Positions 2,785-57,412 of a stretch of DNA of 64,000 nt are shown piece by piece. Made by a program: the position numbers and the translations under genes. The stretch's first letter is position 1. The number at the start of each line of letters is the position of its first letter. The notes beneath the pieces are model-generated. The model saw only the letters and a program-made list of their open reading frames with translations, made no database searches and was not told the origin of the DNA. The DNA is from Adhaeribacter arboris (GTDB lineage: Bacteria; Bacteroidota; Bacteroidia; Cytophagales; Hymenobacteraceae). The stretch covers positions 2,852,001 to 2,916,000 of the forward strand of contig NZ_PYFT01000001.1 of NCBI RefSeq assembly GCF_003023845.1, read 5' to 3'.

Positions 2785-3369
2785 TTATGGCTTGGAAATA
2801 AATTCAAGGATTTGCTTCACCATCTTTTCCGCTGTGCTGGTATACTCCTCTTCATATTTTTGTAAGAGTTCTTCCCGGGAGATAATTGTCCCTTTAGCCT
2901 GTTTTTCCCATAACACCGATAAAGTGGTATAAGGCGGCAGAATCAATCCAATGGCATTAAAAAAATTGCTCAGGTTGGCAATGATATGTTGGGCCCCATC
3001 CGAATCACCTGTAATAATAATACCGCCTATTTTTCCTTCTAACCGCGAGGGTTTGCCTGCCAGTACTTCATCATGGAGTTCATCGAGCCGTTCGATTACT
3101 TTTTGAATTTCCGAAGATTGATTGTTCCACCAAATGGGAGTGGCAAAGAGGAGAATGTCCGCTGTTAACAGTTGTTCTAAAATCTGGGGCCAATCATCCC
3201 CCGAACCCATATTACTGTAAGTTCCGGGTAGAATTTGATAATTCACCAGCTTGATGATCGTACAATCAATCTTTTGCTGGCGCAAAAAACCGGCAAAGAA
3301 CTCCGATAAGACTTCGGTATTAGATAAGCCTTCCTTTTTTAAAGTTCCTAGTAAAATAATAGCCTTCAT
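2785..3369 (-). CDS. NAD(P)H-dependent FMN reductase-like flavodoxin-fold protein
   Basis: 194 residues. The N-terminus MKAIILLGTLKKEGLSNTEVL has the beta-strand plus phosphate-binding loop that grips FMN in the flavodoxin fold. The centre has ADILLFATPIWWNNQSSEIQKVIERLDE, the typical P-W segment around the flavin ring of NADPH-dependent FMN reductases, and later IIITGDSDGAQHI. The length fits the family. It probably reduces flavin or quinone-like substrates in the cytoplasm; the substrate is not deducible. It lies 56 bp downstream of the sigma factor gene on the same strand and may be co-transcribed. Confidence 0.85.
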   Translation of the reverse strand: MKAIILLGTLKKEGLSNTEVLSEFFAGFLRQQKIDCTIIKLVNYQILPGTYSNMGSGDDWPQILEQLLTADILLFATPIWWNNQSSEIQKVIERLDELHDEVLAGKPSRLEGKIGGIIITGDSDGAQHIIANLSNFFNAIGLILPPYTTLSVLWEKQAKGTIISREELLQKYEEEYTSTAEKMVKQILEFISKP

Positions 3370-3425
3370 CTGATAGGGGTGATTAATCGGTTCCTAATAA
3401 TAATACTGCCTATGCTTTACTTCTT

Positions 3426-11791: not shown

Positions 11792-12156
11792 TTCACCATA
11801 TTATTAGTCTTTTCTTTATGGCAATCTTGGCAAAGCGTTTGAAAATTTGAGATACCACATGCGCCACCCCCATTAGAAACCGGCAGAATATGGTCTGCTT
11901 GCCAATTTGGGGTTATAACACCACAGTTGCGGCAAGCTCCTTGGTCTAATTGATAGAGTAGTTTTCTAATAATACCAGTATTCCCTTTAATAATAGCAAA
12001 TTGTATATAAGAGTTATCTCTACATTTATTTGAATACCATTTTTTTCGAGGGTTATCCAGTAAATTACCACAACCGCAGGCGCATACTCCAGATAATACG
12101 GGGAATAAATCTTCTAGATTTAAATTTTTTTGGTATCTACTATAATTATCAACCAT
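11788..12156 (-). CDS. HNH endonuclease-like protein
   Basis: 122 residues. An N-terminal CACGCG knuckle with a C-x-N-K-C partner (WYSNKCRD) is followed by the HNH core: CRNCGVITPNWQADHILPVSNGGGACGISNFQTLCQDCHKEK. The DH of ADHILPV, the N of SNFQTLC and the H of DCHKEK are the expected catalytic and metal residues, and the two CxxC pairs hold zinc. It would nick or cut DNA. It lies far from the terminase genes, so a packaging role is less obvious than for cos-proximal phage HNH proteins. Confidence 0.88.
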   Translation of the reverse strand: MVDNYSRYQKNLNLEDLFPVLSGVCACGCGNLLDNPRKKWYSNKCRDNSYIQFAIIKGNTGIIRKLLYQLDQGACRNCGVITPNWQADHILPVSNGGGACGISNFQTLCQDCHKEKTNNMVK

Positions 12157-12249
12157 TACTTAACAAGGCTATAAGTAAAATGTAGGGATAGCAACTTTTA
12201 ATCGCACTATGATAGAATGGAAATGTGAACAGTGGTTATCTTGTGCATA

Positions 12250-13369: not shown

Positions 13370-13608
13370 TTACTTTCTGGGTAATAATGTTCAACTCTCC
13401 ATTCTCCAAACTTGGACATTACTTTTATGCCATCCGGACTAGTAAAGGTTGTTCTCCATTCACTAAGTCCTGTATTGTTTTTGAAACTTTCAATGGCTTG
13501 CAATACTGCTTGTACTGTTTTATACTTTTTACCCCAATACCATCGAGAACACTTTGTACCGTCAGAAAATATTACCCGAAAGGTTACTCGGTATAAACTT
13601 TCACTCAT
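13366..13608 (-). CDS. Hypothetical phage protein
   Basis: 80 residues, basic and aromatic (KCSRWYWGKKYKTVQAVLQA, GEWRVEHYYPESK). No domain recognised. It lies between two tiny genes, both joined to it by ATGA overlaps. Confidence 0.6.
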   Translation of the reverse strand: MSESLYRVTFRVIFSDGTKCSRWYWGKKYKTVQAVLQAIESFKNNTGLSEWRTTFTSPDGIKVMSKFGEWRVEHYYPESK

Positions 13609-13652
13609 TTTTGTATTCTCCTAATAATAAGCGTAGCCACTAATAATAACAT
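13605..13652 (-). CDS. Possible 15-residue peptide gene
   Basis: MLLLVATLIIRRIQK with a stop overlapping the next start as ATGA. The same frame is open for eight more codons upstream (ending near the lipoprotein stop) but has no ATG. It looks like the end of a membrane helix, so it may be a real micro-gene or only a translational coupling leader. Confidence 0.3.
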   Translation of the reverse strand: MLLLVATLIIRRIQK

Positions 13653-13675
13653 CCAAAAAGTAGGGTAACAGGGAT

Positions 13676-14731
13676 CTATTGCAGCATCGGCAGGCGCGGC
13701 ATTACGTCCAAAAAACCGCTTTTCTCATTCCCGATATACAGGTCTTTTAACAGTACTACCCGTTTATATTTAATGTGCCGGCTGTAAATACCTACCTTAA
13801 AATATCCGGGCATTTCGGCATCGTTGTAGGCGTTCGGACCATAATACTTAAGTACTTGTTTTCCGTTAATGGCCAGGATAATTAAGCCTCCTTCCGTCTT
13901 GTATCGTGGATCTGATTCGGAGAAAGTTTTGTAACTGTGCCTTACGTACCAGGTAAAGACTACATCCTGATCTTTGGGTAAGGGAATAAGTTTAAAGTTC
14001 TTTTTACCCTCTCTGTTCGTATTAGTCGTTACTTTTTTACTATCCCAACACACCATTACGTGCAAGTAATCTCCTTCCGCAAACAGCGCAATAGGTGGAA
14101 CAAGGGGCTTTTCGCCTAGCCTCTTATCCTCGTGGTTATGCCATTGGGTTATTATATCGGGTTCTGAGTGCGCCTGCCAGTTTTCTACCGGGAATCGCAT
14201 GGTATAGCCGTAGCGAGAAATTAAGCCGGGTTCGGAATCTTTTAGTATTTCCGAACGGACAACGCCATTCTTGTTATCGTTGGCGCTTAAAACAAACCGG
14301 GCCCACTTGGCACCTCCCAATTCCACGAACTGCAAGCCCATCGGATTAGCCGTTTGCTTGCGGAAACCTCTGGGCAAAGTGGTGCTGGCAAAGTCGTGCT
14401 GCGTACTTAGATTAGCCCGCTTTTCGGGTATCTGGAATACTGGGTCGTTGGGTTTCGGCTGCTCCGGAGTAGGCTCGTTCGGAGTAATCACCTCTGGAAC
14501 CGGTACGCTTATTTCCGCTTCTTCTTGCTCAGGAGGGGTAACTACTACGGCCGTATCCGGTTGCTCTGGAGGTTCCGGTGTTACAACTGGTGGTTGGTCC
14601 GGCGTAACTACGGGAGGCGTTTCCGGTTGTTGGACTACCGGTGGATAGTACGAATGGTTATTGTTCTGCTTCTTTGGCTCACAGCTAAGCAGCAGGTTTA
14701 GGGAGAGGATTAAAAGTAATAGCCTTTTCAT
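13676..14731 (-). CDS. Lipoprotein with lyase-like jelly-roll domain
   Basis: 351 residues starting MKRLLLLILSLNLLLSCEPK; the lipobox LLSC puts the acylated Cys at residue 17. Residues about 30-110 form a Pro/Glu/Thr linker (PPVVTPEPPEQPD-like repeats). The rest resembles the concanavalin-type fold of heparin-lyase/alginate-lyase families, with a conserved RSEI segment, an internal FTWYVRHSY block and the closing GYFKVGIYSRHIKYKR. It may cleave or bind surface polysaccharide. It sits directly downstream of the endolysin, so it may change the cell surface of the host or help virion exit. A second protein with the same pattern is at 22060. Confidence 0.65.
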   Translation of the reverse strand: MKRLLLLILSLNLLLSCEPKKQNNNHSYYPPVVQQPETPPVVTPDQPPVVTPEPPEQPDTAVVVTPPEQEEAEISVPVPEVITPNEPTPEQPKPNDPVFQIPEKRANLSTQHDFASTTLPRGFRKQTANPMGLQFVELGGAKWARFVLSANDNKNGVVRSEILKDSEPGLISRYGYTMRFPVENWQAHSEPDIITQWHNHEDKRLGEKPLVPPIALFAEGDYLHVMVCWDSKKVTTNTNREGKKNFKLIPLPKDQDVVFTWYVRHSYKTFSESDPRYKTEGGLIILAINGKQVLKYYGPNAYNDAEMPGYFKVGIYSRHIKYKRVVLLKDLYIGNEKSGFLDVMPRLPMLQ

Positions 14732-28846: not shown

Positions 28847-29153
28847 TTTTCTCTTTTATAACATCCAAGAAATCGGCTAATGCTCCTTGAAAATGCCAGG
28901 ATTTTATAAAATCATCATAGTTGTATATCCTTCCTGTATCAGTATTATTTTCACCACCTGTAAGTAAATTATAAACTTCAGTATTTTTTTTAATATAAAA
29001 ATTTGCTTTATTTAATAAAGAATCCACATCTCTTTCCCCTGAAGCTCTTATTTGTTTATTTTTACCTTTTTCATATTTGTAGTAGGCAGTTGAATATTCG
29101 CTGTATATAGCATCTAAATTTTTATACAACTCCTGCCATTGTTCTTTAGTCAT
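28824..29153 (-). CDS. Hypothetical helical protein
   Basis: 109 residues, Lys/Glu-rich and helical (EQWQELYKNLDAIYSEYSTA, LADFLDVIKEKIESFDKA). AT-rich compared with the tail genes on both sides, which suggests later insertion as a moron. It is divergent from the RNA unit at 29240. Confidence 0.6.
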   Translation of the reverse strand: MTKEQWQELYKNLDAIYSEYSTAYYKYEKGKNKQIRASGERDVDSLLNKANFYIKKNTEVYNLLTGGENNTDTGRIYNYDDFIKSWHFQGALADFLDVIKEKIESFDKA

Positions 29154-29239
29154 ACAATTTCTTTTTTAGGTGAATCTCAAAGATAGAAGTATCCTCTAAT
29201 AATAGAAGGAATAGAAAAATAAAATAGTTGCAACAGTCT

Positions 29240-29270
29240 TTGCAAGTTTGCGTATAATTATATATCTTTA
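29240..29270 (+). promoter_or_regulatory. Promoter of the RNA unit
   Basis: TTG at 29240-29242, a 20-base spacer and TATCTTTA at 29263-29270 match the Bacteroidota -33/-7 consensus. Transcription would start near 29276, exactly where the tRNA-like RNA begins. Confidence 0.7.
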
Positions 29271-29276
29271 CTTTAT

Positions 29277-29399
29277 AATCAGGTGGCAGAAACTGGAAGA
29301 TGCGCACGTACTCAATAAGGCAACGGCAGGTGAGAGATGTATTCGAGTAGCTAACGATTACAGTACCGAAGTTTGTAGGTTCGATTCCTACCCTGATTA
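29277..29399 (+). ncRNA. tRNA-like RNA with greatly enlarged anticodon region
   Basis: Acceptor strand AATCAGG (29277-29283) pairs with CCTGATT (29392-29398); D-arm GCA/TGC with GG in the loop; T-arm GTAGG-TTCGATT-CCTAC (29375-29391). The D-arm (TGGCAGAAACTGGAAGATGC) looks like that of a class II tRNA-Leu. Between the D-arm and T-arm there are about 71 bases instead of 25-45, with no normal anticodon stem; GTACT and AGTAC (near 29308-29312 and 29361-29365) can pair around a large loop. It may be a decoy, a processed structural RNA or a tRNA broken by insertion. Confidence 0.7.
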
Positions 29400-29400
29400 C

Positions 29401-29562
29401 GATTCTTTGCGACTTTTCTAAAGGTCAACAGGTTTTACGAGTTACTACCTGGCCCCGGAGAGAACAGAAGAACACTAACCTTATGTCGCATTGAAGGTTA
29501 GTGCCAGCCACAGGCGCTTAGCGAGTTTGAGGGAAAGCTGAGTCGTGGTAACCCTTAATTTT
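29401..29562 (+). ncRNA. Structured RNA with hairpin and pseudoknot
   Basis: CACTAACCTT (29473-29482) pairs perfectly with AAGGTTAGTG (29494-29503). The 11-base loop contains GTCGCA (29485-29490), which is complementary to TGCGAC at 29408-29413 upstream, so a pseudoknot can form. GCGCT-T-AGCG and AGGG...CCCT make smaller hairpins further on. No ORF fits. It lies in one transcript between the tRNA-like RNA and tRNA-Thr. Confidence 0.55.
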
Positions 29563-29635
29563 GCCTCTTTAGCTCAGTTGGTAGAGCAGCTCATTCGTAA
29601 TGAGCAGGTCGCTGGTTCAAGTCCAGTAGGAGGCT
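29563..29635 (+). tRNA. tRNA-Thr (anticodon CGT)
   Basis: 73 bases. Acceptor GCCTCTT/AGGAGGC, D-arm GCTC...GAGC with GG loop, anticodon stem GCTCA/TGAGC with loop TTCGTAA (anticodon CGT, reading ACG), T-arm GCTGG-TTCAAGT-CCAGT. The discriminator base is T and CCA is not encoded. It is a canonical phage-borne tRNA inside the RNA unit. Confidence 0.93.
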
Positions 29636-29795
29636 CAACCCCAAGACGATGAATATGTCACAGATGGCCCGATAGAAGCGCAAGCGAGGGAATCGGCACT
29701 AGTAGCAAGTGAGGATGCACAAGGCAAGAGTGGTTATACCCGAAAGGGAGCCCGCTACAGCTTTTGTCCATGGCACTTACGGCCGTAAGCGTGAA

Positions 29796-29826
29796 CCGGA
29801 ACCGCGTCAGTGTTCCGGATTTTTTA
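29796..29826 (+). terminator. Terminator of the RNA unit
   Basis: CCGGAAC (29796-29802) pairs with GTTCCGG (29812-29818), followed by ATTTTTTA. It ends the RNA transcript nine bases before the next start codon. The 160 bases between the tRNA-Thr and this hairpin have no clear ORF and contain several GC-rich short palindromes such as TTACGGCCGTAA. Confidence 0.75.
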
Positions 29827-31422: not shown

Positions 31423-32010
31423 ATGCGCTCAACTATCTACCTACTCGCTTTACTATTACTATTTGCCTGTACACCTAACGCCTCAGAGGAATTGGTACAG
31501 CCCCGTATTTCTATAAATTCTAACGCGGTTTATGATAGTGTCGTTTACGAAAACCGGCCTTTAGGTATAACCCTAGAATACCGGCGAATTGCCGATACCA
31601 CTTTTACGGACCCGATTACGCAAGAAATAGTGCCCGGAATAAGCTACACCGTTCTTGTTTACGATAGCTTGCAGATAAAATCCCCCTGGGAAGGAGAGGT
31701 ACGATTAGTTAGCATTAAAAGGCCATCTAGTAAGCCGGCTTTAAATTTAAGTTCTAAGAACGCTCCGGATAACGTGTACTTTGTACGCAAAGATAAGACT
31801 AATCCCGAATGGTCTTACTTATTCTATTACAAACGTGTTCCTACGGGTACCTACGCGCCCATGGTATGCCGGTTTGTAATCGGGAAATATGCCTCTGACC
31901 CGGACAATCGGTACGCCAACATCGCTAATTGGGATGCTAGTACCGTTAACGTTTTACGTAGAAACGGGAATACTTCTATCTTTCACATTATAAACCCATA
32001 CGCGGAATAA
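31423..32010 (+). CDS. Phage lipoprotein of the accessory island
   Basis: 195 residues. MRSTIYLLALLLLFACTPN is a lipoprotein signal with Cys16 as the acylated residue. The mature part is beta-rich (GITLEYRRIADTTFTDPITQ, NVYFVRKDKTNPEWSYLFYY). Phage lipoproteins at the outer face often act in superinfection exclusion; this is inference from type. Its stop overlaps the next start by one base. Confidence 0.7.
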   Translation: MRSTIYLLALLLLFACTPNASEELVQPRISINSNAVYDSVVYENRPLGITLEYRRIADTTFTDPITQEIVPGISYTVLVYDSLQIKSPWEGEVRLVSIKRPSSKPALNLSSKNAPDNVYFVRKDKTNPEWSYLFYYKRVPTGTYAPMVCRFVIGKYASDPDNRYANIANWDASTVNVLRRNGNTSIFHIINPYAE

Positions 32011-56507: not shown

Positions 56508-56711
56508 TTATTTACTAAATGATTCACAATACAGGTTTATCAAATTATCTAAACGTTGTCGTTCGGTTTGCTTACAGTAGAGTTCTGCTTTCAATACTGC
56601 CGCTTCACTGGATTCTTTCTTCGTCCGGGCAATCATTTCTTCTAAATTGTTTATTTGCTTTTCGGCATTAGAGAAATACAGGTAAATGGTATCTAAAAAT
56701 TCACGGTTCAT
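56508..56711 (-). CDS. Small coiled-coil protein
   Basis: 67 residues, helical (FLDTIYLYFSNAEKQINNLE, EMIARTKKESSEAAVLKAEL). ATGA overlap with the 56708 gene. Unknown function. Confidence 0.6.
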   Translation of the reverse strand: MNREFLDTIYLYFSNAEKQINNLEEMIARTKKESSEAAVLKAELYCKQTERQRLDNLINLYCESFSK

Positions 56712-57412
56712 GAGGCTTTATTAGTTTGTTCTGGTTGAAGGCGACTGGCTAAATATTGTTTCCGGTATTCCTGATAAGCAGAATCCTTGCTAACTTCGTC
56801 CTTTATTCCCTCGGTATAGCCGGAAAACTGCTTCAAGAATTCAATGTACTTTTGCACTCCTTCCAGTTCCTCTTCGGTGTACTTAAAGTTTTTTTCGGAA
56901 TCTTTGTAGGCATTAGCGCGTTGCAAGGCTTGTTCCTCCACTACCGAATCACGTTCGCCTTTAATGTAAGCATCCATCCAACCGTGAATCGTCATGGCAT
57001 CAAAAGTGCCGTATAACTTGCCGAACTTACCCGTAACCCCCTCCCGTAGCACGTAAGCGATTTCATCAAATTTCAAGTACCAATACCGGGTAATAATCTC
57101 ATTACTCAATAAGGCAGTTTGAAAGCTGCTCAAGCGTTTTTCTTGGGCTAGATTCAACTGATTATTGTAGAAAGAAAGTAGTCGGGTTAAGGCTTCGCTT
57201 AAATCTTCCGGTGATTCTTTGCGGATTTTACTTAGCTGCGGCGTGGTTAAAGCACCAGGAACAGATAAAACCATTTGTTGCCGAATGAAAGTTACTTGCG
57301 CTAATTTGTTAGCCGGATTACTCGGATCACTTTGCAGCAAGCATTCGAGCAATGGCGACTGCTTCCTCAGTATCAAGCCGGCTTCGTTGGTTTTGGTTAG
57401 TTCGGTTTTCAT
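56708..57412 (-). CDS. Hypothetical replication-region protein
   Basis: 234 residues, helical (LTRLLSFYNNQLNLAQEKRL, SNEIITRYWYLKFDEIAYVL, TFDAMTIHGWMDAYIKGERD). In Bacteroidota phages and plasmids a protein of this type lies after replication genes. It overlaps the upstream gene by 86 bp in another frame. Confidence 0.6.
   Translation of the reverse strand: MKTELTKTNEAGLILRKQSPLLECLLQSDPSNPANKLAQVTFIRQQMVLSVPGALTTPQLSKIRKESPEDLSEALTRLLSFYNNQLNLAQEKRLSSFQTALLSNEIITRYWYLKFDEIAYVLREGVTGKFGKLYGTFDAMTIHGWMDAYIKGERDSVVEEQALQRANAYKDSEKNFKYTEEELEGVQKYIEFLKQFSGYTEGIKDEVSKDSAYQEYRKQYLASRLQPEQTNKAS

Follow-up and report, generated by a model that had tools for sequence, protein, structure and literature searches.

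The tRNA frame has been used by engineers as a carrier of foreign RNA: in the scaffold developed for stable RNA expression in E. coli, the acceptor, T and D arms are kept and the anticodon stem-loop is converted into an insertion region (PMC3753655). The phage RNAs described below resemble this scaffold in the retained acceptor stem, D arm and T arm and in the exchange of the anticodon stem-loop for other RNA; the scaffold relies on host recognition and processing, and the same may hold for the phage RNAs. The scaffold is, however, a laboratory construct, while the phage elements are natural and present in many copies, and their inserts, unlike those of the scaffold, are conserved and often take the place of the variable loop too. 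The tmRNA (RF00023) also has tRNA-like ends and a long insertion where the anticodon arm would be, but this is a single conserved insertion with a tag reading frame and pseudoknots, and a proper D stem is missing, whereas the phage RNAs have the D stem and short, unrelated inserts; no match to the tmRNA model was given by ARAGORN or Rfam at 29277-29399. With tRNA-Leu the phage RNAs share a D arm of the GGCGGAANTGG type, U8/A14/A15/U48, G18G19, the T loop TTCGANT, a 7-bp acceptor and mostly A73, and they differ from it in having no canonical anticodon arm. Bacterial Y RNAs (YrlA) are non-coding RNAs mimicking tRNA and equipped with a module of their own; there the tRNA mimic makes up one internal module rather than a frame built from the two ends of the RNA, and no Rfam match to YrlA was found in the window, i.e. 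in the whole 64,000-nt stretch of Adhaeribacter arboris DNA that was analysed. GOLLD (RF02032) and ROOL are phage RNAs often located near tRNA genes (PMC12286853). They are much larger, have their own fold and no tRNA frame, and since neither matched the window in cmscan, at the gathering score or at E<=5, a likeness in kind, beyond the similar setting pointed out in the first-pass annotation, was not borne out.

RNA unit of the prophage

The region is prophage-like, with terminase, portal, tape-measure and tail genes, all on the minus strand. Between the tail protein and the tape measure these late genes are broken by a plus-strand module (29239 to about 33496), which is a moron-like cargo region, and the RNA unit forms its opening part. 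The unit consists, in this order, of a promoter-like sequence, a tRNA-like RNA, a 163-nt spacer, tRNA-Thr(CGU), a trailer and a terminator (Table 1). The module also contains small ORFs, of which the tested ones had no family match, and a possible lipoprotein is encoded at 31423-32010.

Table 1. Features of the RNA unit (positions within the window)
Feature	Position	Strand	Remarks
Promoter-like sequence TTTG-N20-TATCTTTA	29239-29270	+	Bacteroidota -33/-7 type; placement only
tRNA-framed RNA	29277-29399	+	acceptor, D arm, T arm; 0 matches in 40 shuffled windows
71-nt insert replacing anticodon arm and variable loop	29304-29374	+	presumed payload; ends in U48
Spacer RNA	29400-29562	+	hairpin 29473-29503 (10 bp); possible 6-bp pseudoknot 29408-29413/29485-29490
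tRNA-Thr, anticodon CGU	29563-29636	+	ARAGORN; Rfam 67.9 bits
Trailer RNA, tRNA-Thr to terminator	29637-29795	+	sequence
Intrinsic terminator CCGGAAC-CGCGTCAGT-GTTCCGG-A-T6	29796-29825	+	hairpin shared with second unit

The halves of the promoter-like sequence (TTTG at 29239-29242, TATCTTTA at 29263-29270) are placed so that a transcript would begin close to the 5' terminus of this RNA element. Since the pattern occurs five times across the window against 4.6 expected, which is the chance level, it is placement and not statistics that speaks for a promoter here, and the consensus promoter of the first-pass annotation is reduced to a well-placed candidate. The other components which had been read from the sequence fared better: the tRNA-Thr was recovered, the terminator has a 7-bp stem (29796-29802/29812-29818) followed by A and T6, and the spacer hairpin is a perfect one of 10 bp (29473-29482/29494-29503). 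The pseudoknot proposed together with this hairpin does not rise above chance: its 6-bp complementarity is true but equalled in 10% of shuffles. The claim that no credible coding frame is present also holds among the listed ORFs, as the unit is overlapped only by a 57-aa ORF with a TTG start, a 53-aa GTG ORF on the minus strand (29146-29307) and a GTG extension of the downstream gene.

Homologues of the spacer part 29401-29562 were not found in INPHARED or in the genomes of the genus, so this part, earlier named as the seed for covarying homologues, carries no covariation support. The whole unit matched nothing but tRNAs in INPHARED. A DNA search of the genus did not find it in any of the seven further genomes and returned cellular tRNA-Thr and one more unit-specific match in the bacterium's own genome; a synteny search via the tail protein led to the same prophage only.

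That further match (G000:C1:2527879-2527919, about 353 kb from the first unit) belongs to a second unit composed of tRNA-Met(CAU), a spacer, a 155-nt tRNA-like RNA (L013:2655-2809) and a terminator, near which a phage repressor-like gene, an HNH endonuclease and a phage-type dNMP phosphatase are located. The 23-nt terminator hairpin is identical in both units, its 9-nt loop included. Outside the frame and the terminator the two units have no sequence in common: the inserts differ, the order of parts is another one and the spacers show no relationship. In 204 genomes of the family no further copy of the perfect hairpin was seen. The hairpin was also considered as a mark of the RNA family and rejected, because no perfect copy with a T-run was seen beyond the two units (and the same prophage in IMG/VR), other matches to the terminator pattern being without the extended stem and T-run.

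tRNA-framed RNA and its insert

The arms 29276-29283 and 29392-29399 are complementary at 8/8 positions; seven of the eight closing pairs make up the acceptor (29277-29283/29392-29398), U29276:A29399 is the eighth, and A29399 is the discriminator. They enclose a D arm of tRNA-Leu type (GCAGAAACTGGAAGATGC, 29286-29303) and the T arm GTAGG-TTCGATT-CCTAC (29375-29391). U8, A14, A15, G18G19 and U48, the bases which hold the tRNA elbow together, are all kept. The D and T arms are separated by 71 nt, compared with about 20-45 in a tRNA, and no 5/7/5 anticodon arm is present within 29304-29374. From the canonical tRNA the element thus has the acceptor, D and T stems and the core bases and lacks the 5-bp/7-nt anticodon arm; with the phage tRNA-framed RNAs it shares the paired frame, a D-to-T gap of at least 36 nt and the missing anticodon arm.

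When a frame detector was applied (7-bp acceptor, U8, D arm with GG, T arm), exactly two matches appeared in the window, this element and the tRNA-Thr, and nothing in 40 dinucleotide shuffles of the window (5.1 Mb, both strands), although the same detector gave one chance match (gap 123 nt) in coding DNA of an unrelated contig. The tRNA-like RNA noticed in the first-pass annotation is thereby upheld. ARAGORN reports no tRNA at this place, and the Rfam tRNA model reaches 20.1 bits (gathering 29) over the 3' half only (29341-29399).

The insert has no relative in IMG/VR, INPHARED or the sampled genomes, which is true of many single members of the family as well, and it folds no better than its shuffles (z +1.1); its role as a payload is hence proposed by analogy. 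Fourteen nucleotides of it (TACTCAATAAGGCA, 29309-29322) are the complement of a stretch (57103-57116) in the mRNA of ORF 56708-57412, a phage ORF on the minus strand. The match, with P = 0.024 when either strand is allowed, may be taken as a weak lead.

Family of tRNA-framed RNAs in phage contigs

A search of IMG/VR with a pattern of D arm, gap of 52-110 nt and T loop, in which the 5' strand of the acceptor is fixed at no more than its last two bases, returned 18 contigs, 17 of them besides the prophage itself. In sequences chosen by D arm and T loop, 96.7% of pair cells were formed against 79.6 +/- 1.4% after shuffling, 9 of 15 frame pairs were changed on both sides, and on each of the measures none of 500 shuffles equalled the observed value. 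Many members have the acceptor AGTCAGG/CCTGACT in common. Scanning for AGTCAGGTGGCGGAATKGG gave at least 120 stretches. Among the matches listed from all scans, 186 distinct inserts (at least 36 nt) are found in 117 loci; they sort into 139 groups without mutual relationship, set in a frame that hardly varies. A single locus may hold up to eight elements (L065, a 9.8-kb contig). U48, the base that pairs with A15, is retained in 165 of the 186 inserts and in the window. A contiguous 5/7/5 anticodon arm is present in 4 of 160 long-insert elements versus 166 of 257 of normal length. There is no motif common to the 186 inserts and no partner protein common to the family contigs was found.

Compared with the family consensus, the window element has G2:C71 of the acceptor replaced by A:U, and in the T stem A:U by G:C and C:G by U:A, all of them compensated changes; its frame is more diverged than that of most members. 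Its AATCAGG acceptor was met in one other member, L288, which has a different insert. A control scan with the 5' half of the window element alone (AATCAGGTGGCNGAANNNGG) hit 26 other contigs, 25 of which have no tRNA-like frame at that place, the remaining one being L288, an apparent member. On the grounds of its frame, the window element may be regarded as a diverged member of the tRNA-framed family, residing in a temperate phage. The proposal of a new class of phage RNA made in a tRNA-containing transcript thus survives for the element 29277-29399, which has covarying relatives, and gains no such support from 29401-29562.

Several records of the family are 100-290 kb long, which is the size of large phages. 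No member was found in named phages, where the matches were tRNAs or a huge-phage ORF with no element. Rfam contains no family of such tRNA-framed RNAs, a few members scoring there as weak tRNAs, and no description of the class was found in the open-access literature, the scope searched, so that an account elsewhere is possible; it apparently represents a large, undescribed phage RNA family. One phage contig with tRNA-framed RNAs, L063, also encodes GOLLD (11836-12243), freshwater-1 RNA (3348-3409) and tmRNA (13561-13958), which indicates that several odd phage RNAs travel together.

Several inserts recur, nearly identical, across different contigs and contexts. The core of the best-covered one, GYGTGCCATTGGGGNAGNRCCAAGAAAGTTAC, was searched without any frame, and all 24 distinct places (24/24) proved to be inside a tRNA-like frame, between D side and T arm, with the reservation that two begin at a contig end within the insert, leaving only the T side visible. 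The D arm around this insert is aberrant in L231 and L249, and in L228 the insert sits in a different acceptor (AGTGGTA/TGCCGCT) that is still fully paired. One pair of the insert covaries, from C-G to U-A in 4 of 20 sequences; most core pairs could not vary because the search pattern fixed most of the core. Taken together, the inserts form slightly more stable folds than their shuffles do (mean z -0.68, s.e. 0.10, n=120). Antisense action was considered for the inserts as a class and rejected, as complementarity to 16S/23S rRNA, the own contig or tRNAs is not enriched. An extra T-arm-like hairpin occurs in 9 of 186 inserts against 0.4 expected, which suggests that some inserts may have arisen by tRNA gene fusion. 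In some elements with the AGTCAGG acceptor (L063:1555-1644, L091 on the minus strand at 1456, L148, L151 and L159) the D arm is aberrant and another T-arm-like stretch lies within; these are perhaps fused tRNA genes.

tRNA-Leu-like sequences were also seen in cellular genomes of genus g3, of the same bacterial family. In L199, L200, L209, L215 and other g3 genomes (around locus position 1501) there is a conserved RNA of 117-128 nt with the acceptor TGTAGTG/CGCTACA, GCCCTCCTATCTCGGGGGTGAAG, a variable hairpin and a T arm, which has no normal anticodon arm and is reported neither by ARAGORN (two loci tried) nor by Rfam; its CCCTCCTNTCTCGGGGGTG part has a relative in the phage contig L176. A second sequence, of 148-157 nt (GTGGCGAAACTGGTAGACGC ... 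TACTTCGC ... T arm), is present in L198, L203, L205 and L226, and its acceptor is poorly paired.

Proposed function and alternative explanations

Judged from its sequence, 29277-29399 probably encodes a tRNA-framed RNA in which a frame of tRNA-Leu type carries an unrelated insert instead of the anticodon arm and variable loop, that is, a natural scaffold with a payload. The frame itself is well supported, and a function may be deduced from it. One short transcript, from about 29275 to 29825, would be processed by the tRNA-maturation enzymes of the host, with cuts at both the tRNA-like RNA and tRNA-Thr, the frame attracting RNase P, 3' processing and CCA addition. The frame would provide defined, protected ends and an elbow which can be gripped by tRNA enzymes. 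The RNA, because it has no anticodon arm, is unable to decode. The insert would be the functional payload, displayed in the position of the missing anticodon arm, and its likeliest target would be a host protein or RNA. In the family such a role is suggested by the conservation of individual inserts across phages; for the window insert it is presumed. Transcription, processing, stability and payload function all belong to the conditional part of this scheme. The scaffold reading is backed by the covariation of the frame, the diversity of inserts and the position of the GYGTGCCATTGGGGNAGNRCCAAGAAAGTTAC core in frames at 24/24 places, and by the second prophage of the same genome, where the same parts and terminator occur with another insert.

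The main rival is a decoy or sponge, in which the frame is the active part and anticodon-less tRNA copies occupy or mislead tRNA-acting enzymes (defence nucleases, synthetases, maturation enzymes), and the insert does no more than remove the anticodon. It would account for a frame that is nearly constant in sequence although compensated changes are allowed, and for the D arm and mostly A73 of tRNA-Leu type, as bacterial LeuRS needs little of the anticodon; several elements also sit in tRNA-rich phages. Filler inserts would not, however, stay nearly identical across contigs and contexts, and the frame differs in the window and in L013, with one copy in each, which makes the decoy unlikely, if still to be reckoned with. 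A functionless, decayed tRNA-Leu gene with an accidental insertion is rather improbable. The element is single-copy in the phage and adjoined by a normal tRNA, and its insert is without relatives or unusual folding, as would be expected after decay, but the stems and core bases of the frame have all been preserved, the changes relative to the family are compensated, a second independent unit of the same layout exists in the same genome, and more than 100 relatives are intact. Nor is it probable, and here the doubt is stronger, that the frame is only a processing mark (tRNA punctuation) which cuts the transcript and frees spacer RNAs or neighbouring mRNAs, with the tRNA-like piece as waste. ORFs do end just upstream of family elements in 45% of cases and start just downstream in 30%, versus 18% and 16% at random positions, and in ten cases the stop codon of the upstream ORF overlaps the first bases of the element, yet the conserved inserts would be left unexplained and the window has no same-strand coding gene upstream of the unit.

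The two remaining explanations have very little in their favour. That the 550-nt unit is one large structured RNA akin to GOLLD or ROOL, from which the tRNAs are cut out, is suggested by the prophage setting near tRNAs, by the perfect spacer hairpin and by the GOLLD gene on a relative's contig (L063). Besides the missing Rfam matches, it is made highly improbable by the 552-nt unit folding as a whole no better than shuffles (z +0.9) and by the second unit, which keeps only the tRNA, the tRNA-like RNA and the terminator, reordered and with unrelated spacers. Least credible of all is a tRNA-Leu gene with a short intron, removed to give a normal tRNA: the D and T arms are those of tRNA-Leu and the insert lies at the anticodon-arm place, but across the class a rejoinable 5-bp anticodon stem is possible in 40 of 160 inserts against 38.9 in shuffles, the inserts have no common motif, and Rfam gives no self-splicing or other intron match.

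Significance

On balance, and with slightly more reserve than for the single locus, phages, among them large environmental phages and a pair of prophages in one bacterium, more likely than not carry an undescribed class of non-coding RNA in which one anticodon-less tRNA frame displays considerably more than a hundred unrelated payloads, with conservation demonstrated for some. It would be a natural scaffold and perhaps a platform for stabilising regulatory or counter-defence RNAs. If this is right, the tRNA scaffold was in use by phages long before it was taken up by engineers, and annotation tools miss the class because they look for an anticodon. The conserved payloads, e.g. the GYGTGCCATTGGGG...CCAAGAAAGTTAC core, offer concrete pull-down baits, and the prophage unit is a compact example, present in one copy, in a bacterium whose genome is nearly complete. 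The phage non-coding RNAs would gain a large class whose payloads can be tested, and some of the structured 'empty' DNA that surrounds tRNA genes in phages would be explained.
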